Assembly: GCA_001664005.1 (NCBI GenBank)
Contig: CP016093.1
Coordinates: 875,001-939,000 of the forward strand
DNA: 64,000 bases
Direction of reading: 5' to 3'
From: Rhizobiales bacterium NRL2
GTDB lineage: Bacteria; Pseudomonadota; Alphaproteobacteria; Minwuiales; Minwuiaceae
Numbering within the stretch: the first letter of the stretch is position 1; each line of letters begins with the position of its first letter. The notes below the pieces were generated by a model. It had not been told where the DNA came from, did not search any database, and saw only the letters and a program-made list of their open reading frames with translations. A program made the position numbers and the translations under genes. This document shows, one piece after another, positions 2,306 to 18,528 of this stretch.

Positions 2306-3247
2306 TCAGAGGTCGCCCAGCAGCGGCCGGACCTCCTTCGCGAAGCGTTCGAGCTGCGCCATCTCCTCGCCGTCGGGGCCCGTCGGGTCCATGACGAAGT
2401 GGCGCACGCCCGCGGCGTGGAAGGCGCGGATCTGCTCCGCCACCTGCTCGGGCGTGCCGAGCGCGGCGTAGCGCTTCGCGGGCTTGCGGAAGTCCATGGC
2501 GTAGCGCCGCGTGAGGTGTTGGGTCGCCTTGTCCCAGGCCGTGTCGAAGTCGTCGTCGATGCGGAAGAAGTAGAGGTGCCCGGTGCCGTAGCGGTCCACC
2601 GTCCGGCCGGCCTTCTCCATCTCCTGCTCGATGGTGGCGAGCGATTCGGCGAACATCTCCGGGGTGACGACATAGGAAATCCAGCCGTCGCAGAGTTGCG
2701 CCGCGCGCCGGAGCGCCGCGCCCGACCGCCCGCCGACCCAGACCGGCGGGCCGCCGGGCTGCACGGGCTTCGGCAGCATCTGCGTCTCGGGGATGTCGAA
2801 GTGGCGGCCCTTGTGGCTCACCTTCTCGCCGGTCCAGAGCTTGCGGATGACCTCGATGGATTCGGAGACGCGGGCGCCGCGTTCCTTGTGAGGCACGCCG
2901 ACGGCGGCGAACTCGCCGGGGAACTCGCCGCCTACGCCGGTCCCGAAGATGAAGCGCCCGCCCGAGAGATTGTCGAGCGTCGAGGTCAGCTTGGCCGTCA
3001 GCGTCGGGTGGCGCAACGCCAGCAGGTAGACGCCGGTCGCCACCGTCACTTTGTCGGAAAGCGCGGCGGCCTGGGCGAGTTGCAGCAGCGGGTCCATGAT
3101 CGGCACAGCGAAGGCGATGTGATCGCCCAGCCAGATCGAGCTGAAGCCGTTGTCCTCGGCCAACTTCACGGTGGCGATTGCGGCCTCCCGGTCCGCCATC
3201 CGCCCCATGAACCCGAACTCGGTCTTCTCCGCCAGTTTCAGCGCCAT
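2306..3247 (-). CDS. LLM-class (luciferase-like) flavin oxidoreductase
   Basis: A 313-residue member of the bacterial luciferase-like TIM-barrel family, which uses FMNH2 or F420H2. Family marks are TEFGF at the start, ATGVYLLALRHP (about 78-90), the LSGGRFIFGTGVGGEFPGEF stretch (about 100-118), PVWVGGRS (about 175-182) and a C-terminal FHAAGVRHFVMDP strand. The internal ATG at 3247 is chosen because AGGGGAGG lies just upstream and the conserved barrel begins immediately after it; a longer frame upstream only mirrors the divergent gene. It is divergent from the related gene at 3342, so the two share a 94-base control region. Substrate is not inferable; family members act on alkanes, nitriles, sulfonates or F420-dependent substrates. 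Confidence 0.88.
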   Translation of the reverse strand: MALKLAEKTEFGFMGRMADREAAIATVKLAEDNGFSSIWLGDHIAFAVPIMDPLLQLAQAAALSDKVTVATGVYLLALRHPTLTAKLTSTLDNLSGGRFIFGTGVGGEFPGEFAAVGVPHKERGARVSESIEVIRKLWTGEKVSHKGRHFDIPETQMLPKPVQPGGPPVWVGGRSGAALRRAAQLCDGWISYVVTPEMFAESLATIEQEMEKAGRTVDRYGTGHLYFFRIDDDFDTAWDKATQHLTRRYAMDFRKPAKRYAALGTPEQVAEQIRAFHAAGVRHFVMDPTGPDGEEMAQLERFAKEVRPLLGDL

Positions 3248-3341
3248 CTCCCCGGCCTCCCCTTTGCCTAATGCGATCCGCCGCGCCACTATTCTGGAGA
3301 TTGTCGCGGCCACAGGCCAGCCATGAACGGGGAGAGACGCC

Positions 3342-4283
3342 ATGCCGGTAAGAGCGGGACTGGGATTCGGGGAGTTGCCCTTCTCGGGCGCGGCGGCGTT
3401 CTGGGACTGGATCGACATGCTGGAGGCGGGCGGGGTCAACAGCTTCTGGCAGTCCGACCGCATCGCGTCGTCGCGCCCCCACCTGGAGCCCATGACCGTA
3501 CTGGCGGCCATCGCGGGCCGGACGAAGAAACTGAAGTTCGGCATGAACGTCGCCTCGCTGGCGCTCAGGGAGCCGGTGCTGCTGGCCAAGCAGTGCGCGA
3601 CGATCGACTTCATTTCCGGCGGCGGGCGGCTGCTGCCGGCCTTCGGCATCGGCGCCAAGCTGGCCCCGGACTGGGAGGCCACGGGCACGCCGCTGGCCGG
3701 CCGCGGCGCGCGCGCCGACGAGGCCCTCGAGATCATCATGCGGCTCTGGCGCGGCGAGACGGTGGACTATGACGGCCGCTTCTTCCAGCTGAAGGGCGCG
3801 CGCATCTCGCCGACGCCGGTGAACCCGCGCATCCCCATGTGGATCGGCGGCTCGACCGCCGCGGCGGTGAAGCGGACCGCGAAATACGGCACCGGCTGGC
3901 AGGCCGCCTTCGAGACGCCGGCGCAGCTCGCGCCGGTGATCCGCTCGATCCGGGAAACGGCCATCGCCCAGGGCCGCGCGGTGCCCGAGGATCATTTCGG
4001 CGCGGGCTTCCCCTTCCGCTTCGGCAGCCCGGACGACCCGGCGGTGGCGAAGGAGATGGAGCGGTTCTCGAAGCGGCTGAAGCGCGATCCCTCGGACTAC
4101 TTCGTCGTCGGCGACGCCGCGACGATCCTGAAACGGCTGCGCGAGTATGTCGGCGCGGGGGCGAGCAAGTTCATCCTGCGCCCTGTGGGCGACGGCGACG
4201 CCGACCTGTTCGACCAGACGCGGCGCTTCATCGAGGAGGTCCAGCCCGACCTCATGGACATCCCCATGCCCGAGGCGGCGTAG
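3342..4283 (+). CDS. LLM-class (luciferase-like) flavin oxidoreductase
   Basis: A 313-residue luciferase-like oxidoreductase, clearly related in layout to the divergent neighbour though not close in sequence. Visible marks are the strand RAGLGFGELPFS, FGMNVASLALREPVLLAKQ (about 65-85), FISGGGRLLPAFGIG (about 90-104), RIPMWIGGS (about 164-172) and the C-terminal GASKFILRPVGDGD. The ATG is preceded by GGGGAGAG. Two luciferase-like genes back to back, with a third at 41105-42019, suggest a flavin-dependent catabolic or redox function, but nothing here fixes the substrate or says whether FMN or F420 is used. Confidence 0.9.
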   Translation: MPVRAGLGFGELPFSGAAAFWDWIDMLEAGGVNSFWQSDRIASSRPHLEPMTVLAAIAGRTKKLKFGMNVASLALREPVLLAKQCATIDFISGGGRLLPAFGIGAKLAPDWEATGTPLAGRGARADEALEIIMRLWRGETVDYDGRFFQLKGARISPTPVNPRIPMWIGGSTAAAVKRTAKYGTGWQAAFETPAQLAPVIRSIRETAIAQGRAVPEDHFGAGFPFRFGSPDDPAVAKEMERFSKRLKRDPSDYFVVGDAATILKRLREYVGAGASKFILRPVGDGDADLFDQTRRFIEEVQPDLMDIPMPEAA

Positions 4284-5514: not shown

Positions 5515-6654
5515 CTAGCCCTTCCCGAAGAAGCCCCGCAGCACCCGCTCGTAGATCGCGGTCAGCTTGGGGATGTCGGCCACGGCGCAGCGTTCGTCGA
5601 CCTTGTGCATGGTCTGGCTGACCAGCCCGAATTCGACCACCGGGCAGGCGTTCTTGATGAAGCGCGCGTCGGACGTGCCGCCCGTGGTCGAGAGGTCGGG
5701 CTCGACCGAAAGCTCGGCCAGAATGGCGTCGTGCAGGTTGGCCGTCAGATCGCCGGGTTCGGTCAGGAACGGGTCGCCCGAATTGCGCACCGTGAGTGTG
5801 TAGTCGCCGCCGACGCTGTCGCAGGCGGCGCGGATCTTCGCCTCCAGCCCGGCGGCGTCCTGCAGCGTGTTGTAGCGGACGTTGAAGAACGCCTGGCCGC
5901 TGGCCGGGATGACGTTGGAGGCGGTGTTGCCGACGTCGATCGTGGTGATCTCCAGGTTCGACGGCTGGAAGTGCTCGTTGCCCTCGTCCAGGTCGATCGC
6001 CGCAATGCGGTCGAGCATCTTCACCAGCCGCGGCAGGGGATTGTCGGCCAGGTGCGGATAGGCGATGTGGCCCTGGGTGCCGTTGACCACCAGCCGGCCG
6101 GAGAAGGAGCCGCGGCGGCCGATCTTGGCCATCTCCCCCAGCGCCACCGGGTTGGTCGGCTCGCCCACCAGGCAGGCGTCGATGGTCTCGCCCTGCGCGG
6201 CCATCCAGTCGAGCACCTTGGTCGTGCCGTTGATCGCCGGGCCTTCCTCGTCGCCGGTGATCAGGAAGGCGATCGAGCCCGTGAACCCGTCGGCGATGAC
6301 GCGCTCGGCGGCCTCGACCATGCAGGCGATGGCGGTCTTCATGTCGGTGGCGCCGCGGCCGTAGAGCTGGCCGTCCTCGATCTCCGCGCCGAAGGGATCG
6401 TGGCGCCAGGCCGCCGCGTCGCCGACGGGGACGACGTCGACATGGCCGGCGAAGCAGAAGACCGGCCCCTCGGCGCCGTAGCGGGCGTAGAGATTCTCCA
6501 CGTCCGGGGTGCCTTCCTCGGAAAAGGTGAGGCGGTGACAGGCGAAGCCCAGCGGCTTCAGCGCCGCCTCCAGGCAGTCCAGCGCGCCGGCTTCGGCCGG
6601 GGTCACGGACGGGCAGCGGATCAGGTCGCGGGCGAGGTCGAGGGCGTCGGTCAT
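5515..6654 (-). CDS. dapE: Succinyl-diaminopimelate desuccinylase
   Basis: A 379-residue M20 metallopeptidase-family enzyme. DapE hydrolyses N-succinyl-LL-2,6-diaminopimelate to LL-diaminopimelate and succinate in lysine and peptidoglycan precursor synthesis, in the cytoplasm. Marks include LIRCPSVTPAEAG at the N-terminus, the metal-binding FAGHVDVVPVGD with the following WRHDPF, GRGATDMKTAIA, the catalytic TGDEEGPA, and the C-terminal DARFIKNACPVVEFG before a HKVDERC motif. The length matches the family. The ATG at 6654 is preferred: the frame can be extended to 6687, but the family begins with the ALDLARDLIRCPS segment. The gene is alone on its strand and is flanked upstream by an intergenic palindrome. 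Confidence 0.95.
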   Translation of the reverse strand: MTDALDLARDLIRCPSVTPAEAGALDCLEAALKPLGFACHRLTFSEEGTPDVENLYARYGAEGPVFCFAGHVDVVPVGDAAAWRHDPFGAEIEDGQLYGRGATDMKTAIACMVEAAERVIADGFTGSIAFLITGDEEGPAINGTTKVLDWMAAQGETIDACLVGEPTNPVALGEMAKIGRRGSFSGRLVVNGTQGHIAYPHLADNPLPRLVKMLDRIAAIDLDEGNEHFQPSNLEITTIDVGNTASNVIPASGQAFFNVRYNTLQDAAGLEAKIRAACDSVGGDYTLTVRNSGDPFLTEPGDLTANLHDAILAELSVEPDLSTTGGTSDARFIKNACPVVEFGLVSQTMHKVDERCAVADIPKLTAIYERVLRGFFGKG

Positions 6655-6690
6655 GGAGGCTTCACCGGTCGTTGGATCGTCGCACATAGA

Positions 6691-6786
6691 GGAATGACGG
6701 CTTGCCCGGGCTCGACCCGGGCACCCGGTTCTTCGGATCGCTGGGCCCTCGGGTCAAGCCCGAGGGCGCCGACGGATGGTCATTCC
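6691..6786. repeat. Intergenic palindromic element with GGAATGAC/GTCATTCC ends
   Basis: Terminal inverted octamers GGAATGAC (6691-6698) and GTCATTCC (6779-6786) bracket two inner hairpins, one around TGCCCGGGCTCGACCCGGGCA and the other around CCTCGGGTCAAGCCCGAGG. The right end overlaps the last codons and the stop of the acyl-CoA dehydrogenase gene. This is the style of short dispersed palindromes common in alphaproteobacteria. Confidence 0.65.
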
Positions 6787-8009
6787 GCCGCCTGCTTCGG
6801 CGGCGGCGAGTTCTTTCCGGCATAGCCGTCGCGGGTCTGGGGCAGCTTCATGCCGAGCAGGCCGGAGGCGACAACCGTGCGCAGCACCTGAGCCGTGCCG
6901 CCGCCGATGGTGAACATGCGTGCGTCGCGCACCATCCGCTCCATCGGCGCATCGCGCGAATAGCCCTTCGCGCCGAAGACCTGCAGCGCGTCATTGGTCA
7001 CCTTGATCGCCATTTCCGAGGCGAAGACCTTGGCCTGGGCGGCCGAATAGGGATCGGGGAAGGGGCTGCCGCCGGGTCCGCGGCTGCGGGCTGCGCCCTG
7101 CAGCATCAGCCGCGCCGCGTCGACCTGGATCGCCATGTCGGCCAGCATCCATTGCAGGCCCTGGAACTCGGCGATGGGGCGTCCGAACTGGACCCGCTCC
7201 AGGGCGTAGTCGCGGGCATGCTCCAGCGCGCCGGCGGCGATGCCCAGCGCCATGGTGCCGGCGCCGACGCGCTGGGAATTGTATGCGTTCATCAGATCCG
7301 CGAAGCCGCGCCGGAAGCCGGAAGGCGGCATCAGCACTCGGGATTCCGGCAGTTCGAGATCCTCGAAGATCACCTCGGCCTCCGGGATCCCGCGCAGGCC
7401 CATGGTGGGCTCCCGCTTGCCGATGCGCAGGCCTTCGTCCTCCTCGCGCACGGCGATGAAGCCGCCGATGCCGAGCTCGCTCCCGTCCTCGTCGAAGGCG
7501 CGGGCGAAGATCAGGTGTAGCCGGGAGACCCCGCCGCCGGTGATCCAGTGCTTCCGGCCGTTCAGCACCCAGCGGTCGCCGCGCTTCTCGGCGCGGGTGG
7601 TCATCTCGGTCGCCGCCGAGCCCGCCTCCGGCTCGGTGATGCAGATCGCCGGCTTGTCGCCCGAAAGCACGAAATCGGCGGCCATACGGCGCTGCTCGGG
7701 CGTGCCGTAGGTCAGGACGGCGGAGATCGCGCCCATGTTGGATTCCACGGCGATGCGCCCGGTGACGCCGCAGACCTTTGCCATCTCCTCGATCACCAGC
7801 ACGGCGTCGAGAAAGCTCCGGCCCTGGCCGCCCAGATCCTTCGGGATGGTCAGGCCCATCAGCCCGGCGTCGTTCAGGGTCTTCACGTGGTCCCAGGGAT
7901 AGGCCTCGGTGCGGTCGATCTCCGCCGCGCGCGGGGCGATGGCGTCCCGTGCGATTTCCCGGGCCTTCTGCTGCAGGGCCCGTTCCCCGGGGCTCAGTTC
8001 GATCTGCAT
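6780..8009 (-). CDS. acdA: Acyl-CoA dehydrogenase-fold protein, probable 3-sulfinopropanoyl-CoA desulfinase
   Basis: A 409-residue acyl-CoA dehydrogenase fold with ICITEPEAGSAATEMTTRA (FAD/substrate region, about 122-140), WITGGG (155-160) and the C-terminal RDARMFTIGGGTAQVLRT. The usual catalytic glutamate of the YEGT motif is replaced by Gly370. From memory, the same replacement, with Arg at 85 (84 in the reference), AYNxQRVGAG around Gln246 and the tail MKLPQTRDGY, marks the Advenella enzyme that removes sulfite from 3-sulfinopropanoyl-CoA, giving propanoyl-CoA. It uses FAD but performs no net dehydrogenation. The match is strong along the chain. GAGGAGGAC precedes the start. Another non-dehydrogenating member of the family is possible, and no organosulfur genes are adjacent except a sulfatase 9 kb away. 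Confidence 0.75.
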   Translation of the reverse strand: MQIELSPGERALQQKAREIARDAIAPRAAEIDRTEAYPWDHVKTLNDAGLMGLTIPKDLGGQGRSFLDAVLVIEEMAKVCGVTGRIAVESNMGAISAVLTYGTPEQRRMAADFVLSGDKPAICITEPEAGSAATEMTTRAEKRGDRWVLNGRKHWITGGGVSRLHLIFARAFDEDGSELGIGGFIAVREEDEGLRIGKREPTMGLRGIPEAEVIFEDLELPESRVLMPPSGFRRGFADLMNAYNSQRVGAGTMALGIAAGALEHARDYALERVQFGRPIAEFQGLQWMLADMAIQVDAARLMLQGAARSRGPGGSPFPDPYSAAQAKVFASEMAIKVTNDALQVFGAKGYSRDAPMERMVRDARMFTIGGGTAQVLRTVVASGLLGMKLPQTRDGYAGKNSPPPKQAAE

Positions 8010-8023
8010 GGACGGTGTCCTCC

Positions 8024-8695
8024 TCAGCGTTTCGATACCATCGGCATGCCCCGGATTTCACGCACAAGTTTGCGCACCATGGCGGGCCGGAAGGCCTCGA
8101 AGCTGTCGGCGGCGATGACGAACGCACCGGGGCCGGCGATCAGCCAGTCCTGAAAGTACTGGCCCAGGCGCGGCTCGTCGCTGAGGATCGGCAGGCCGTT
8201 GATCGTTATTCCGCGCCGGATCGCTTCCGCCCTGGTCTCGCGCAGCAGGGGCGGGCCGCGGTTGACGCCGTCGCCCGAGAGATCGACCACCCGCCGCGCC
8301 GCGGGGAAAGGGGCGCGGTCGAGATGGTCGAAACAGAACCGGAGCGCCGCGCCGATCTTCGTGCCGCGGAAGCGGAAGGCGCGGGGCGCCGACCAGATCC
8401 GGGCGGCCAGCGCCTGCGCCGAGGCCGCGCCGTCGATCCGGGTCCACGGGACCACCACGGCCTGCTCGGCATCCGACGACCATTGCACCAGGGAGAGCGC
8501 CACGGCGCCCAACTCGCCACGCGCGATGGCGTCGATCACCGCGGGGTGGGCGATCGCCTCGGCGACGCCGCGCATCTGCAGGCCGTACTCGCCGGCGTCG
8601 ACGCTGGCCGAAACGTCGACCGCCAGCACGATGGCGACATCGACGGCCTGGGCACGGGCGGGGGCTTGCGGCAGCAGGGCGAGAAGGCCGACCAT
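8024..8695 (-). CDS. DUF1194 family protein (von Willebrand A-like), exported
   Basis: About 223 residues. After a short hydrophobic start ending APARAQA comes a vWA-like core: VAIVLAVDVSASVD (a MIDAS-like DxSxS), LVQWSSDAEQAVVVPWT, RGTKIGAALRFCFDHL, a second D in RRVVDLSGDGVN, and the C-terminal DWLIAGPGAFVIAAD with REI at the end. These are typical of DUF1194, an alphaproteobacterial exported family of unknown role. The start is uncertain. ATG 8695 gives a short signal peptide with no obvious ribosome binding site; an in-frame CTG just upstream (8707 or 8710) would lengthen it but would run into the leader of the divergent agmatinase-family gene. It ends 14 bases before the acyl-CoA dehydrogenase gene on the same strand. 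Confidence 0.75.
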   Translation of the reverse strand: MVGLLALLPQAPARAQAVDVAIVLAVDVSASVDAGEYGLQMRGVAEAIAHPAVIDAIARGELGAVALSLVQWSSDAEQAVVVPWTRIDGAASAQALAARIWSAPRAFRFRGTKIGAALRFCFDHLDRAPFPAARRVVDLSGDGVNRGPPLLRETRAEAIRRGITINGLPILSDEPRLGQYFQDWLIAGPGAFVIAADSFEAFRPAMVRKLVREIRGMPMVSKR

Positions 8696-8728
8696 GGCCG
8701 CGACCAGCAGAACCGGGAGAAAGCTTCG

Positions 8729-9694
8729 ATGACGGGCAACGCCTATGACTCCGGCCGGCTCAACCTGCCCTTCGTCGGGCACTGCACTTTCGCCAGGCAG
8801 CCCGTCTGCCTCGACTGGGACCGGATCGAGGCCGACGTCGCCGTCTTCGGCGCGCCCTACGATATGGGCACCCAGTACCGGGCCGGCGCGCGTTTCGGCC
8901 CCCGCGCGATCCGCGAGGCCTCGACCCTGTTCTCCTTCGGCCATGGCGGCGCCTACGATCATGAGGATGACGTGACCTACCTTCCCGCCGATCGGGTGCG
9001 CATCGTGGACATCGGCGACGCCGACATCATCCATACCGATACCACGAAAAGCCACGACAACATCGAGGCGGGCGTGCGGCGCATCCTGGACGCCGGGGCG
9101 TTGCCGGTGGTCCTCGGCGGCGACCATTCGGTCCACATCCCCTGCATCCGGGCCTTCGGTGACCAGCCGCCGGTGCATATCGTCCACATCGACGCCCATC
9201 TCGATTTCGTCGACGAACGCCACGGCGTCCGCTACGGCCACGGCAATCCGCTCAGGCGCGCCTCGGAGATGGCGCATGTCACCGGCTTCAGCCAGCTCGG
9301 CATCCGCAACGTCTCCTCGTCGAACCGCGACGACTACGCGGCCGCCCGGGCCGCGGGCTCCGACATCCTCTCGGTCCGGCAGTTCAGGAAGCTGGGCGTG
9401 GACGGCGTGCTGGCGCGGGTGCCGTCAGACAGGCGCTATTACCTGACCATCGACATCGACGGCTTCGATCCCTCGATCGCGCCGGGCACCGGCACGCCCA
9501 GCCATGGCGGCTTCCTCTACTACGAGATCCTGGAGTTCCTGCAGGGGCTGGCCGGCCGGGGCGAGATCGTCGGCGTCGACCTGGTCGAGGTGGCGCCCGA
9601 CTACGACCGCGACGGCACCACCGCCTTTCTGGCCGCGCAGTTGCTCATGAACCTGCTGGGCTTCGTCTTCCACGCCAGGGGGCGGAGCGCGTAG
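8729..9694 (+). CDS. speB: Agmatinase/arginase-family ureohydrolase
   Basis: A 321-residue binuclear manganese ureohydrolase. Metal-ligand motifs are intact: GGDHS (130-134), DAHLD (155-159) and the IDIDGFDP run (241-248). PGTGTP (252-257) follows, and the N-terminal GAPYDMGTQYRAGARFGP is the family signature. Agmatinase cleaves agmatine to putrescine and urea, but relatives cleave guanidinobutyrate, guanidinopropionate or proclavaminate, and the sequence alone does not decide. The ATG at 8729 has GGGAG nine bases upstream. It is divergent from the DUF1194 gene with almost no spacer. The downstream hairpin-rich repeat may act as terminator. Confidence 0.85.
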   Translation: MTGNAYDSGRLNLPFVGHCTFARQPVCLDWDRIEADVAVFGAPYDMGTQYRAGARFGPRAIREASTLFSFGHGGAYDHEDDVTYLPADRVRIVDIGDADIIHTDTTKSHDNIEAGVRRILDAGALPVVLGGDHSVHIPCIRAFGDQPPVHIVHIDAHLDFVDERHGVRYGHGNPLRRASEMAHVTGFSQLGIRNVSSSNRDDYAAARAAGSDILSVRQFRKLGVDGVLARVPSDRRYYLTIDIDGFDPSIAPGTGTPSHGGFLYYEILEFLQGLAGRGEIVGVDLVEVAPDYDRDGTTAFLAAQLLMNLLGFVFHARGRSA

Positions 9695-9760
9695 CGCAGG
9701 CGTCAGGCTTCCGGTTGATGATCGGTTCGACCCCCTCCCGCCTCCGCTGGCGCGGACGCA

Positions 9761-9786
9761 CCCTCCCCCTTGTCCAAGGGGGAGGG
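9761..9786. repeat. Hairpin within an intergenic C/G-run repeat, possible terminator of the ureohydrolase gene
   Basis: An 11-base perfect stem CCCTCCCCCTT/AAGGGGGAGGG with loop GTCC. It sits inside a C-rich then G-rich block (about 9729-9798) between the ureohydrolase and aminotransferase genes. Such blocks recur between genes in alphaproteobacteria. There is no T-run, so termination would not be classic. Confidence 0.55.
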
Positions 9787-9866
9787 CCGGGGAGGGGGAT
9801 TACTCCGTGCTGGCAAGCGGTTCGCCGTTGCCGCGCAACAATTGAAGCGTCAGTTGCGGAATTGTT

Positions 9867-9889
9867 CTCAACCAACTAATCTGGTTGAG
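9867..9889. promoter_or_regulatory. Operator-like inverted repeat upstream of the aminotransferase gene
   Basis: A perfect 8-base inverted repeat, CTCAACCA (9867-9874) and TGGTTGAG (9882-9889), with a 7-base spacer. It lies 37 bases before the aminotransferase start in a locally AT-richer stretch. The geometry suits a dimeric repressor or activator; a weak terminator followed by TCTTTTG is the alternative. Confidence 0.4.
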
Positions 9890-9925
9890 TCTTTTGTCTC
9901 CACCGATTCGCGCGACCGGCCTTCG

Positions 9926-11113
9926 ATGACCAATGCCCGCCTCGATCTGCTGACCGACTATCCGTTCCAGCGCCTGCGGGACCTGCTGGATGGCGTCGAG
10001 GGTGGGGGGGCGACGCTCAATTTCGCGCTCGGCGAGCCGCAGCTGGGTCCGCCGCCATTGTTGATGGACGCGCTGGCGAAGGACGCCGCCGGCTTCGGCA
10101 AGTATCCGGCGGCCAACAGCACGCCGGAACTGCGCCGCGCCATCGCCGACTGGCTCGACCGGCGCTATGGCCTGACCGGTGGCGCGGCGATGGATGCCGA
10201 AACCGAGATCATGCCGCTCAACGGCACGCGCGAAGGGCTCTACAACATCGCCCAGCTGGTGGTGCCCGCGGTCCGCGCGGCGACCCGACCGCTGGTGCTG
10301 GTCCCGAACCCCTTCTACCAGTGCTATCTGGGCGCCGCGACCATGGCCGGCGCCGAGGTCCACCTGATGCCGGCGACGGCGGCGAACGGCTTCCTGCCCG
10401 ATCTCGAGGCGCTGGAGCAGGACGTCCTGAAGCGCGCGGCGCTGCTCTACATCTGCACGCCGGCCAATCCGCAGGGCTCGATCGCCGACGCGGGCTATCT
10501 CCGCCGCGCGCTGGAGATCGCGCGCACCCACGACATCGTGCTGGCGCTGGACGAGTGCTATGCCGAAATCTACGACGAAACGCCGCCGCCGGGCGGGCTG
10601 GAGATCGCGGCGGCGACGCCCGGGCGGTTCCGCAATCTCGTCGTCTTCCATTCGCTCTCCAAGCGTTCCAGCGCACCGGGTCTGCGCTCCGGCTTCATGG
10701 CCGGCGATCCCGATCTGGTCGCGCGCTATGCGAAGCTGCGCAGTTTCGGCGGCGCGCCGCTGCCGAACCCGGTCGCGGCTGCCTCCACGGCGCTCTGGCG
10801 CGACGAGGAGCATGTCGGAAAGACCCGCGACCACTACCGCGCGCTGTTCGATCTGGCCGACGAGAAGCTGGGTAACCGCAAGGGCTATGCCCGCCCGGCC
10901 GGCGGCTTCTTCCTCTGGCTCGACGTCGGCGACGGGGAGGCCTTCGCCGCCCGCCTCTGGCAGCGCACGGGCGTGCGCGTGCTGCCCGGCGGCTATCTCG
11001 CCCGCGACGAGGCGGATGGCAATCCGGGCCGGCCCTTCGTCCGCGTCGCCCTGGTGCACGACCGCGAGACCGTGGCCGACGCGCTCACCAAGATTTCCGA
11101 ACTGATGGAGTAG
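9926..11113 (+). CDS. Class I/II pyridoxal-phosphate aminotransferase (DapC-like)
   Basis: A 395-residue fold-type I aminotransferase. Visible residues are the NG-T motif around LNGTREG (98-104), Asn181 in TPANPQG, the cofactor-ring aspartate and tyrosine in DECY (209-212), the Schiff-base lysine K246 in HSLSKRSSAPGLRSGF, and the C-terminal PGG/R carboxylate-binding region. The N-terminal DYPFQRLRDLL and FALGEPQ resemble the succinyl-diaminopimelate aminotransferases (DapC) of this class, and dapE is 3 kb away on the other strand, but substrate assignment remains inference. The ATG at 9926 is the conserved start; a longer frame upstream runs through repeat DNA. ftsK begins 6 bases after its stop. 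Confidence 0.85.
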   Translation: MTNARLDLLTDYPFQRLRDLLDGVEGGGATLNFALGEPQLGPPPLLMDALAKDAAGFGKYPAANSTPELRRAIADWLDRRYGLTGGAAMDAETEIMPLNGTREGLYNIAQLVVPAVRAATRPLVLVPNPFYQCYLGAATMAGAEVHLMPATAANGFLPDLEALEQDVLKRAALLYICTPANPQGSIADAGYLRRALEIARTHDIVLALDECYAEIYDETPPPGGLEIAAATPGRFRNLVVFHSLSKRSSAPGLRSGFMAGDPDLVARYAKLRSFGGAPLPNPVAAASTALWRDEEHVGKTRDHYRALFDLADEKLGNRKGYARPAGGFFLWLDVGDGEAFAARLWQRTGVRVLPGGYLARDEADGNPGRPFVRVALVHDRETVADALTKISELME

Positions 11114-11119
11114 TCCGCC

Positions 11120-13429
11120 ATGGCCGGATCCACCGCCAGCAGAACCGGCATCTCCTTCGCCGCGCCTGAACTGAAACGCTTCCTCGGCCGGCGTCTGGTC
11201 GAACTCGCCGGCGTGGTTCTGGCCGCGGTCGTCCTGGCGGCCATCGTCGCCGTCGCCAGCCATGACCCGGCGGACCCGAGCTGGAACCGCGCCGGGGCGG
11301 GCGAGACTGCGAACCTGCTGGGTCCGGCAGGCGCGGTGTTTGCCGATCTGATGCTGCAACTCACGGGCCCGATCGCCCTGATCGTGCTGGCCGTACCCTT
11401 CTGTCACGCGCTCCGCATCATCGCCCACCGGCCGGCATCCGCCCTGCGCTGGCGCGGCGCCGTGACGGTGTTCGCCGCCTGCGGCGGGGCCATGGGGCTC
11501 GGTGCGCTGGCGCCCTGGTTCGCCGCGCCGCCGGCGCATTTCGGCGGCGTGCTCGGCGCCGCGGGCGCCGGCATGGCCGCCTTCATCGACGGCGCGCCGG
11601 TCTGGGCCGGCGCAGCCACAGGCGCGTTGCTGGCCATCTTCGCCTTTGCCGGACTGGCCTGGGCCAGCGCCGTGCCGCCGGGCTGGATGGCGCTGCCCTT
11701 CTCGGCGCTGGGCGGCCTGACCCGCCGCCGCGGGACGGACGCCGGCCGGGACGATGCCGCAGACGAAAGAGAGACGGTCTCGGAGCGCCGGACCGCGAAG
11801 CCCAAGAAGACGAAGGCCACGAAGACGCAGCGGGTCGCACCGACGCCGGCCCGCACCAGGCCCGGCCAACGCGCGGCAAAGGAGCGCGAGCCCGAACTCG
11901 ACCTCGGCGCGAAGGACGGCGAGGAGCCGAAACTGCCGCCGCTCGGCCTGCTCTACGAGCCCACGGCGGAAGACTATCCCGCCCGCGCCGGCGCCGATGC
12001 GCTGGAGCAGAACGCGCGCATGCTGGAGAGCGTTCTCGACGACTTCGGCGTCAAGGGCGAGATCACCGATGTCCGCCCCGGTCCGGTGGTCACCCTCTAC
12101 GAGTTGAAACCGGCCCCGGGCACGAAGTCCTCGCGCGTCATCGGGCTGGCCGACGACATCGCCCGCTCGATGAGCGCCATCTCCGCCCGCGTCGCCGTGG
12201 TGCCGGGACGCGACGCGCTGGGCATCGAACTGCCCAACAACACCCGCGAGGTGGTCTATCTGCGCGAGATGCTGGCCTCGGCGGCGTTCGAGAAGAACCC
12301 GGGCACGCTGGCGCTGGCGCTGGGCAAGGACATCGGCGGCGAGCCGGTCTTCGCGGACCTGGCCCGCATGCCGCACCTGCTGATCGCGGGCACCACCGGC
12401 TCGGGCAAGTCGGTCGCCGTCAACACCATGATCCTGTCGCTCCTCTACCGCATGACGCCGGAGCAGTGCCGCATGATCATGATCGACCCGAAGATGCTGG
12501 AGCTGTCGGTCTACGAGGGCATTCCCCACCTGCTGACGCCGGTGGTCACCGAGCCGAAGAAGGCGGTCGTGGCGCTGAAATGGGCGGTCAAGGAGATGGA
12601 ATCCCGCTACCGCAAGATGTCGGACCTGAACGTCCGCAACATCGCCGCCTTCAACGAGCGGGTGAAGGAAGCGACAGCGAAGGGCGAGACGCTGTCCAAG
12701 CGGGTGCAGACGGGCTTCGACCCCGAGACCGATGAGCCGGCCTACGAGGACGTGCCGCTGGACACCGAGCCGATGCCGCAGATCGTCATCGTCGTCGACG
12801 AGATGGCCGACCTGATGCTGGTCGCCGGCAAGGACATCGAGGGCGCGATCCAGCGCCTGGCGCAGATGGCGCGGGCCGCCGGCATCCACCTGATCATGGC
12901 CACCCAGCGCCCGTCGGTGGACGTCATTACCGGCACCATCAAGGCCAACTTCCCGACCCGCATCAGCTTCTCGGTCACCTCCAAGATCGACAGCCGCACC
13001 ATCCTGGGCGAGCAGGGCGCCGAGCAGCTGCTGGGTCAGGGCGACATGCTCTACATGCCGAACGGCTCGCGGATCGTGCGCGTGCACGGCCCCTTCGTCT
13101 CCGACGGCGACGTGGAGAAGATCACCCGCTGGCTGGCGAAGACCGGACGTCCCCAGTACCTGGAGGACGTCACCAAGGAGCCCGAGGACGACGGCGACGG
13201 CTTTACCGGCGAGGGCGGCGGGTCGTCGGACGATCCGCTGTTCGACCAGGCGGTGGAGGTCGTGGCGCGCTCGGGCAAGGCGTCGACCAGCTTCGTCCAG
13301 CGCCAGCTCAAGATCGGCTACAACCGCGCCGCCCGCATCGTCGAGCAGATGGAGGAAGAGGGCATGGTCTCGGCCGCGGACCATGTCGGCAAGCGCGAGG
13401 TCCTGCTGCGCAATCCGGACCAGGACTGA
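11120..13429 (+). CDS. ftsK: DNA translocase FtsK
   Basis: A 769-residue septal DNA pump that drives chromosome segregation and XerCD dimer resolution. Four hydrophobic segments lie in the first 190 residues, as in other FtsK proteins. A charged linker (about 205-265) is short compared with enterobacterial FtsK. The RecA-like motor follows, with Walker A GTTGSGKS (424-431), the strand [13 protein letters not shown] (Walker B) and [12 protein letters not shown]. The C-terminal winged-helix gamma domain (about 703-769, from [11 protein letters not shown] to HVGKREVLL) reads KOPS sequences. It starts 6 bases after the aminotransferase and is probably co-transcribed. All key residues are present. 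Confidence 0.97.
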
Positions 13430-16831: not shown

Positions 16832-18364
16832 TCAGACCGGCGCGATCTTCTCCAGCGGTTCGGCGCGGCCCGCGGGCATGGATTCGCGCAGCGCCGCCAC
16901 GAGTTCGTCCCGGACCTTCCGGTAGCCCGGATCGTCCCACAGATTGAACCATTGCCGGGGATCGTTGGCGAGGTCGTAGAGCTCACCCTCCTCGCCGGTG
17001 AAGTAGTTGCCGGGTTCGTAGACCGTGACGATCCAGTCGCGCGTGGTCATGGTGACGAGATCGACGTCGGTCTCCTCGAAGCGGTCGTGCCATTCGGTGA
17101 AGGTGCAGGCGCGACCGGCCCCGGCAGCCTCGTCGAGCGGCAACGGCGCGCCCTGCATTTCCGGGTCCGGCGTCAGCCCGGCGATGGCGCAGATGGTGGG
17201 CGCCAGGTCGACATGACCGACGGGCGCGGCGACGCGGCCCGATGTGGCGCCCGCCGACGGCGCGGGCCGCCAGAACATGGGGACGCGCATCAGGGAGTCC
17301 ACGTGGTACGGCCCCTTGAACAGCATGCCGAAGTCGCCCTGGAACTCGCCGTGATCGGTGGTGTAGAGCACGTCCGTGTCCGCGTCCCAGCCGTACGCGC
17401 CGATGGCGTCCATGACCCGGCCCACGGCCTCGTCGATCAGTTCGTTCTCGACATGGGTGACGGCGTCGATCTCCCGGATCTGGTCGGGCGTCAGGTCGGC
17501 GGGCCGGAAGCTGGGCGGCGTCTCGAAGTTGAAGCGGCGACGGCCCTCGTACCAGTCCAGCCAGTGCCGGGGCTTGCCCGCCAGAAGCTCGCGGCAGGCC
17601 TCCGCCGAGCCCGGATAGCCCGCCGGCAGGTCGAGGTCGCGCCAGTTCACCCGGCCCAGCTGCGACTGCGGCGGGTCCCAGGGATGGTGCGGGTCGGGGA
17701 AGCTGAGCCAGAGGAACCACGGCGCGTCGCCCGCCAGGCTCTCCAGCCAGTCGATGGCGCGGTCGGCCGTCCAGTCGGTGTGGTAGAGGTCGCGCGGGAT
17801 CGGGTTGTGCCAGACCTGCGGCGCACCGGTGTCGCCGCCGCCGGCGCCGTTGACCTGCCGCCCGACGACCGTCTGGTAGTAGTCCTCGACATGGTCCGGG
17901 TGCCGGTCGGCCAGCCATTTCGGGTAATGGAACAGGCTGCGCCCCGGGCGGCCGGTATGACCCGCCAGCTCCATGCGGTCGAAGCCCCTGTGCGGGCCGA
18001 AATTGCCGGCCGCGGCGGCGCGGTTCTCGAAGAAGTCGGTATGGGAGGCGGGCTCGAAATGCGCCTTGCCGATCAGCGCCGTGGCGTAACCGGCGTCATT
18101 GAGGATGCGGGCCACGTGCGGCGCGTCCTCGGGCAGCGGGATGCCGTTGGAGACGACGCCGTGGCGGCGGATGTGCTGGCCCGTCAGGATGGTCGACCGC
18201 GCCGGCATGCAGACCACGTTCTGGTTCCGCGCCTGGTCGTAGACCACGCCTTCGCCGGCCAGCCGGTCCAGCACGGGCGTGCGGGCGATCCGGCCGCCGG
18301 TGCAGCCCAGCGCATCGTGGCGCTGCTGATCGGTGGTGATCAGCAGGACGTTTCGGCGATTCAA
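16832..18364 (-). CDS. Sulfatase of the alkaline-phosphatase superfamily
   Basis: A 510-residue type I sulfatase that hydrolyses a sulfate ester. The formylglycine signature CxPxR is Cys52-M-P-A-R56 followed by STILTGQ. Metal ligands are visible as TTDQ (about Asp12) and TTDHGEF in the C-terminal half, and DPHHPWDPP is also typical. There is no signal peptide, suggesting a cytoplasmic enzyme. The start is a TTG at 18364: GGGGAGGG lies nine bases upstream and the conserved strand NVLLITTDQQ begins right after it, whereas the ATG at 18430 has no such site. It requires a formylglycine-generating enzyme encoded elsewhere. The substrate (aryl, sugar or alkyl sulfate) is unknown. Confidence 0.92.
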   Translation of the reverse strand: MNRRNVLLITTDQQRHDALGCTGGRIARTPVLDRLAGEGVVYDQARNQNVVCMPARSTILTGQHIRRHGVVSNGIPLPEDAPHVARILNDAGYATALIGKAHFEPASHTDFFENRAAAAGNFGPHRGFDRMELAGHTGRPGRSLFHYPKWLADRHPDHVEDYYQTVVGRQVNGAGGGDTGAPQVWHNPIPRDLYHTDWTADRAIDWLESLAGDAPWFLWLSFPDPHHPWDPPQSQLGRVNWRDLDLPAGYPGSAEACRELLAGKPRHWLDWYEGRRRFNFETPPSFRPADLTPDQIREIDAVTHVENELIDEAVGRVMDAIGAYGWDADTDVLYTTDHGEFQGDFGMLFKGPYHVDSLMRVPMFWRPAPSAGATSGRVAAPVGHVDLAPTICAIAGLTPDPEMQGAPLPLDEAAGAGRACTFTEWHDRFEETDVDLVTMTTRDWIVTVYEPGNYFTGEEGELYDLANDPRQWFNLWDDPGYRKVRDELVAALRESMPAGRAEPLEKIAPV

Positions 18365-18528
18365 CGAAGAGCCCTCCCCAAGACCCGTTGGCAAGTCGCC
18401 GGCAGAGTGGGCCAAACGGCGTCCGTCCACAAGCCGATGCGGGGCGGCGATGCCGGTTTTGCGCGGGACAGGCCCCGCCCTATGTTGTAGCCAGCGAACA
18501 GCGAATTCCTGCCGAAGGAGACCCTCAG

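Follow-up and report, generated by a model that had tools for sequence, protein, structure and literature searches.

The open reading frame at 6780-8009 in a 64,000-nucleotide stretch of DNA from Rhizobiales bacterium NRL2 (the window) most likely encodes a 3-sulfinopropanoyl-CoA desulfinase that, judging from its sequence, carries out the same reaction as the characterised homologue. It very probably encodes an enzyme of an already known kind, as an additional member of the desulfinase family. The frame lies on the minus strand, runs intact from an ATG start through the stop codon included in the coordinates, and specifies 409 amino acids with the N-terminal, middle and C-terminal Pfam domains of acyl-CoA dehydrogenases.

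The product would be a flavoenzyme with the acyl-CoA dehydrogenase fold that lacks the catalytic glutamate. It would bind the CoA thioester of 3-sulfinopropionate, with Arg85 holding the sulfinate and Gln246 nearby, and cleave the C-S bond without net oxidation to yield propionyl-CoA and sulfite. The FAD dependence, substrate, products and roles of Arg85 and Gln246 are all proposed by analogy with the characterised homologue. Excerpts from the literature describe the conversion of 3SP-CoA to propionyl-CoA and sulfite by the desulfinase (PMC5373536, PMC6370202), and a further excerpt describes the reaction as a non-redox elimination of sulfite (PMC8360864).

Family assignment, fold and active-site residues

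The protein scores 677.2 bits against NF042439.1, the NCBI curated equivalog model for 3-sulfinopropanoyl-CoA desulfinase (cut-off 600). This is the only model over its cut-off among the 13 NCBIfam models that match at E 1e-20 or better, and the second, for acryloyl-CoA reductase (AcrC), reaches 308.7 bits, below its cut-off of 640. When the whole genome was scanned with NF042439, one of the 50 matching places passed the cut-off and the runner-up scored 282.9 bits. A chance match is ruled out because 677 bits stand against 283 for the next of the 50. Among solved structures, the best relative by sequence is the Advenella desulfinase 5af7 (521 bits, 62.6% identity), and the next chain scores 264 bits.

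An AlphaFold model was built from a 20-sequence alignment, from which L040 (which contains a stop), L025, L070, L074 and L079 were left out (mean pLDDT 86, pTM 0.86). Foldseek places the Advenella desulfinase at ranks 1-3 with an E value of 7.1e-45, and the next entry at 3.1e-30. VIA-align gives the Advenella entries Z scores of 56.6 (5ahs; rmsd 1.6, 386 aligned) and 56.4, with the next entry outside the family at 49.7. A common fold is by itself no proof of function; what counts is the gap to the next-ranked entries.

We aligned the NRL2 protein with the Advenella chain, 80 loci (the best 80 of at least 577 confirmed when 84,980 species genomes were scanned), five plasmid-borne relatives and seven acyl-CoA dehydrogenase paralogues from the same genome, giving 87 family rows besides the paralogues. 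Five of the seven plasmid matches were used; H4 and L094 were left out. The L094 match, on a Parasedimentitalea plasmid, is spread over five tblastn pieces (8001-9193) with no gene listed, and is possibly a broken copy.

Arg85, Gln246 and Gly370 align with Arg84, Gln246 and Gly366 of 5af7, and this set occurs in 87 of 87 family rows and none of the seven paralogues; the 80 loci were retrieved with patterns from the NRL2 protein itself, so this invariance is partly a product of selection and not independent. We take Arg84 and Gln246 of the Advenella enzyme to be important for function, with Arg84 acting at the sulfinate. The earlier note had read the dehydrogenase motif YEGT as replaced by GGGT at Gly370, and had pointed to Arg85, Gln246 and a C-terminal MKLPQTRDGY tail as agreeing with the Advenella enzyme. 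All are present. The motif region reads MFTIGGGTAQ, with Gly370 at the column usually held by the catalytic Glu, and KLPQTRDG is found in 52 of the 87 family rows, with QTRDG present in 70 of the 87 and in none of the paralogues.

Twelve positions set the three betaproteobacterial rows apart: these rows have a residue in common there, and 90% or more of the remaining 83 rows have a different one. The positions include Ala365 (Gly369 in NRL2, beside the catalytic column) and Val205 (Leu205 in NRL2). With 62.6% identity to the characterised enzyme and these 12 clade-marking positions, there may be room for an altered substrate.

Table 1. Features of the desulfinase locus, with positions counted from the first nucleotide of the window
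Feature	Position	Strand	Basis
acdA-like gene, probable 3-sulfinopropanoyl-CoA desulfinase (409 aa)	6780..8009	minus	NF042439.1, 5af7 match, fold match
AGGAGGA, Shine-Dalgarno-like	8018..8024	minus	Read from sequence; overlaps the end of the upstream stop codon
DUF1194 gene, domain part only, start approximate	8024..8650	minus	PF06707, 218.8 bits
M20 peptidase, downstream of the desulfinase gene	5515..6687	minus	PF01546 and PF07687
Arg85 codon (Arg84 of 5af7)	7755..7757	minus	Arg in 87/87 family rows, 0/7 paralogues
Gln246 codon, aligned with base Glu254 of isovaleryl-CoA dehydrogenase	7272..7274	minus	Gln in 87/87 family rows; Glu in 3/7 paralogues
Gly370 codon, at the usual catalytic Glu column	6900..6902	minus	Gly in 87/87 family rows

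Neighbouring genes and pathway partners

An AGGAGGA motif lies immediately 5' of the desulfinase ATG. The DUF1194 gene is upstream, its stop separated from the desulfinase start by 14 bp (the PF06707 match covers residues 211-411 of ORF 8024-9277), and the two genes are probably co-transcribed in NRL2. Pfam assigns the neighbouring ORFs to the DUF1194, M20 peptidase, arginase, aminotransferase, luciferase-like and pentapeptide-repeat families, and none of these matches has a link to sulfur; the M20 peptidase is presumably DapE-like, as judged by eye. Further off, a YcaO-domain protein (172-1440, minus) lies near two luciferase-like monooxygenases (2306-3739, minus, and 3342-4283, plus). Among the regions of eight relatives, the DUF1194-desulfinase order is kept in the nearest genome (G004) only, and in the other seven, one of which is a contig of only 4.2 kb (G006), the genes adjoining the desulfinase differ. 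One of them (G005, L131) has, about 5 kb away from its desulfinase gene, a region that matches the arginase/DUF1194 stretch at 67%. Because the order is kept in G004 only, the neighbours give no function.

The earlier note had also thought it notable that a sulfatase lies in the same window. The sulfatase exists (16832-18430, minus), at one of the three sites where PF00884 matches the genome, and contains CMPAR, which we take to fit the sulfatase C-x-P-x-R signature. It is 8.8 kb from the desulfinase, with at least six ORFs between; five have Pfam matches (DUF1194, arginase, aminotransferase, oxidoreductase, DRL) and the sixth, 11120-13429, is presumably FtsK-like, as judged by eye. Sulfatases hydrolyse sulfate esters, and such an enzyme would release sulfate, not feed the desulfinase reaction. 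On the distance and the intervening ORFs we rejected a functional link, and as far as the evidence goes the sulfatase is nearby by coincidence of position.

The desulfinase passes the cut-off in 12 of 60 relative genomes, own included: all seven of the genus (NRL2 among them), one of two others in the family and four of the 51 drawn more widely from the class. Across the phylum it is rare: of 398 sampled genomes (own included), 7 are over the cut-off. One literature search that combined this desulfinase with Minwuia, apparently the genus of NRL2, turned up no paper on the two together, and the assignment places a carbon-sulfur-cleaving step in that genus, in all seven of its genomes searched. 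Tracing the substrate to its source, should that succeed, would reveal an organosulfur compound used for growth or detoxified in the lineage of NRL2.

Excerpts of published work have 3-sulfinopropionate activated by SucCD or by the CoA-transferase Act (PMC5373536, PMC6370202). In NRL2, possible activators are succinyl-CoA synthetase and the family-III CoA-transferases, for which the genome has 18 matches. The best (L097) is 42% identical to the Diaphorobacter CoA-transferase that adjoins a desulfinase, and passes no NCBIfam cut-off. According to Pfam, no CoA-transferase or dioxygenase gene adjoins the desulfinase among the neighbouring ORFs at the NRL2 locus. The Diaphorobacter dioxygenase, used as sole query, had two matches in the genome, of which the better was 30% identical, and this one-query search found no clear 3-mercaptopropionate dioxygenase. 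The better match, a thiol dioxygenase, is nearest to the mercaptosuccinate dioxygenase 8vni (111 bits), and scores 30 bits against the 3-mercaptopropionate dioxygenase 4wvz. This thiol dioxygenase (L095 1459-2055, minus; genome 1413948-1414436) has no Pfam match at E 0.001 and sits between ORFs that by eye are rhodanese-like and aminotransferase-like. As for a sulfite oxidase, the sole PF00174 match in the genome is MsrP (425 bits, cut-off 207) and was rejected.

Which genes accompany the desulfinase in other lineages? Within 4 kb at the 80 loci, clustering of ORFs found a ThDP enzyme at 21, a TPR protein at 18, a LysR regulator at 14, a P450 at 11, a family-III CoA-transferase at 11 and a glutamine-synthetase-like protein at 3; no gene caller was used, and short contigs lower these counts. 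The ThDP gene lies on the same strand as the desulfinase in all 21 clustered cases. The ThDP enzyme is acetolactate-synthase-like (for example L018 9251-10870, and also 9223-10839 at the plasmid locus L094), and the solved chains nearest to the ThDP proteins are acetolactate synthases; no NCBIfam cut-off was passed among the families listed for these proteins (25 of 45; 24 in another scan). Examples of the TPR protein are L014 684-2066 and L017 3557-4978, and among the 18 loci with it are all of the five (L012-L015 and L017) whose rows are joined to the same-genus clade in the tree. In the genome of NRL2 itself, the ThDP enzyme has nine matches (best 36% identical), none at the desulfinase locus, and the TPR protein has one relative (38%), away from it.

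Plasmids offer further contexts. On a Diaphorobacter plasmid the desulfinase gene lies between a CoA-transferase gene and a gene annotated as cysteine dioxygenase, on a Paraburkholderia plasmid a CoA-transferase adjoins it and the annotated dioxygenase is about 6 kb off, and on a Mesorhizobium plasmid (L091) it has a CoA-transferase on one side and a sulfate exporter on the other. In the stretches read around the Sulfitobacter and Ruegeria copies, no CoA-transferase and no dioxygenase is present. At L041, L069, L063 and L040 (Actinomycetota) and L091, a P450, a glutamine-synthetase-like protein or a family-III CoA-transferase is found near the desulfinase, in sets that vary, and the Mesorhizobium locus also has an APC permease. 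These gene sets are perhaps an unrecognised sulfur-amine route.

Because the ThDP, TPR, P450 and CoA-transferase genes recur in the 80 loci, we tentatively suggest, as a possibility still open to considerable doubt, that across much of the family's range (Minwuia, other Alphaproteobacteria, Acidimicrobiia and Binatia) the desulfinase works in a route that releases sulfite but is distinct from 3-mercaptopropionate breakdown, with these partners supplying the substrate. The NRL2 locus has no sign of such a role. The listed partners are absent within 4 kb at the same-genus loci L009, L010 and L016, an argument against extending any of them to NRL2. If this wider role is real, the sole characterised pathway is a special case.

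A related alternative for NRL2 is that the protein is a desulfinase by chemistry, with another sulfinyl acyl-CoA as its natural substrate or a place in a pathway other than 3-mercaptopropionate breakdown. This overlaps with our main reading, which fixes only the reaction. It would fit the outcome of the one-query search for a 3-mercaptopropionate dioxygenase, the ThDP, TPR, P450 and CoA-transferase neighbours at related loci and the 12 positions that separate the betaproteobacterial rows. However, in its three functional residues and its fold the NRL2 protein matches the characterised enzyme, the Mesorhizobium protein, which has Gly at column 365 like NRL2, is encoded beside a CoA-transferase and a sulfate exporter, and the same-genus loci L009, L010 and L016 lack the listed partners. 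On balance we regard it as rather unlikely.

Catalytic base positions and phylogeny

Is the protein, then, a true acyl-CoA dehydrogenase? Such an enzyme could have its catalytic acid elsewhere, as isovaleryl-CoA dehydrogenase does, or none at all, as in the decarboxylating benzylmalonyl-CoA dehydrogenase with its GGG motif. The fold and Pfam domains are shared, and Glu is missing from its usual position in some dehydrogenases, according to excerpts of three publications (PMC11659651, PMC12369846, PMC8360864). In one of these excerpts the Advenella desulfinase has the motif AGG, whereas GGG is the motif of benzylmalonyl-CoA dehydrogenase, which is a true oxidising enzyme, and SGG and YGG are found in other dehydrogenases (PMC8360864). 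Because benzylmalonyl-CoA dehydrogenase also reads GGG without Glu, loss of the glutamate alone is no proof of a desulfinase. What carries the proposed desulfinase function is the family score, together with the Arg-Gln pair and the closeness in sequence to 5af7.

The paralogues of the same genome indicate where an acid would be expected. At the Gly370 column, three have Glu, one has Asp (L008), two have Ala and one has Gly (L007), and the three with Ala or Gly have Glu at the Gln246 column instead. All seven thus carry an acid at one base column or the other, whereas the NRL2 protein has one at neither. The best matches of one paralogue (L004) among solved structures, 4o5m (670 bits) and 1ivh (564 bits), mark it as an isovaleryl-CoA dehydrogenase, and its Glu at the Gln246 column aligns with residue 254 of 1ivh, which we take to be the residue numbered Glu286 in the literature. 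An excerpt of that literature names Glu286 as the alternative base of isovaleryl-CoA dehydrogenase (PMC12369846). The earlier note had allowed that a catalytic acid elsewhere would speak for a dehydrogenase; no such acid was found at the two known acid positions, which are taken by Gly370 and Gln246.

The maximum-likelihood tree points the same way. Of its 94 rows, the 87 of the family lie on one side of a long branch (100/100) and the seven paralogues on the other, and the NRL2 protein does not fall in a clade of true dehydrogenases, as represented by these seven paralogues, among them the isovaleryl-CoA dehydrogenase L004. The branches among the paralogues are long and their branching order is not to be trusted. 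Within the family, the NRL2 protein groups with four same-genus rows (100/99); the next to join this clade (100/98) are five rows, two of them proteobacterial and three Binatia-like, of which one bears the label Desulfurellaceae. A separate group with 100/100 support holds the Advenella, Paraburkholderia and Diaphorobacter rows. The Mesorhizobium row is not settled in this careful tree; in a quick first tree it went with the Advenella/Paraburkholderia/Diaphorobacter group at 88.

Given Gln at the alternative base position, the desulfinase model alone over its cut-off among the 13 listed and a tree that parts the NRL2 protein from all seven paralogues (benzylmalonyl-CoA dehydrogenase is not among them), a true dehydrogenase is very unlikely. 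A decayed, non-catalytic dehydrogenase paralogue would fit the loss of the catalytic acid alone, and is extremely improbable in view of the intact frame, the 87 invariant columns over the 87 family rows and the retention of the gene in all seven same-genus genomes searched. The earlier note's choice of 3-sulfinopropanoyl-CoA desulfinase over dehydrogenase is backed by NF042439.1, 5af7 and 5ahs, the three residues, the base positions without an acid and the tree.

Comparison with known enzymes

The closest parallel is the desulfinase of Advenella mimigardefordensis DPN7 (5af7, 5ahs), which shares with the NRL2 protein the fold, 62.6% of aligned residues, the Arg/Gln/Gly set, an acid at neither base column and the C-terminal KLPQTRDGY. 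The two differ in the motif (GGGT in NRL2, AGGT in Advenella) and at the 12 clade-marking positions. According to an excerpt of its description, the Advenella gene adjoins mdo and a CoA-transferase gene (PMC5373536), whereas the NRL2 gene does not. AcdA of Variovorax paradoxus TBEA6 goes by the same enzyme name and, according to an excerpt (PMC6370202), catalyses the reaction proposed here; the acdA cluster there has act and mdo, a context that the 64-kb window of NRL2 lacks.

More distant comparisons set the limits of the likeness. Acryloyl-CoA reductase AcrC shares the superfamily, and its model ranks second for the NRL2 protein, short of its cut-off. Isovaleryl-CoA dehydrogenase shares the fold and likewise has no Glu at the usual position, but has Glu254 where NRL2 has Gln246. 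Benzylmalonyl-CoA dehydrogenase IaaF, likened by motif alone, has GGG for YEG and no Glu, according to an excerpt (PMC8360864). Unlike the reaction proposed for the NRL2 protein, in which sulfite would be released without net oxidation, IaaF both oxidises and decarboxylates its substrate.
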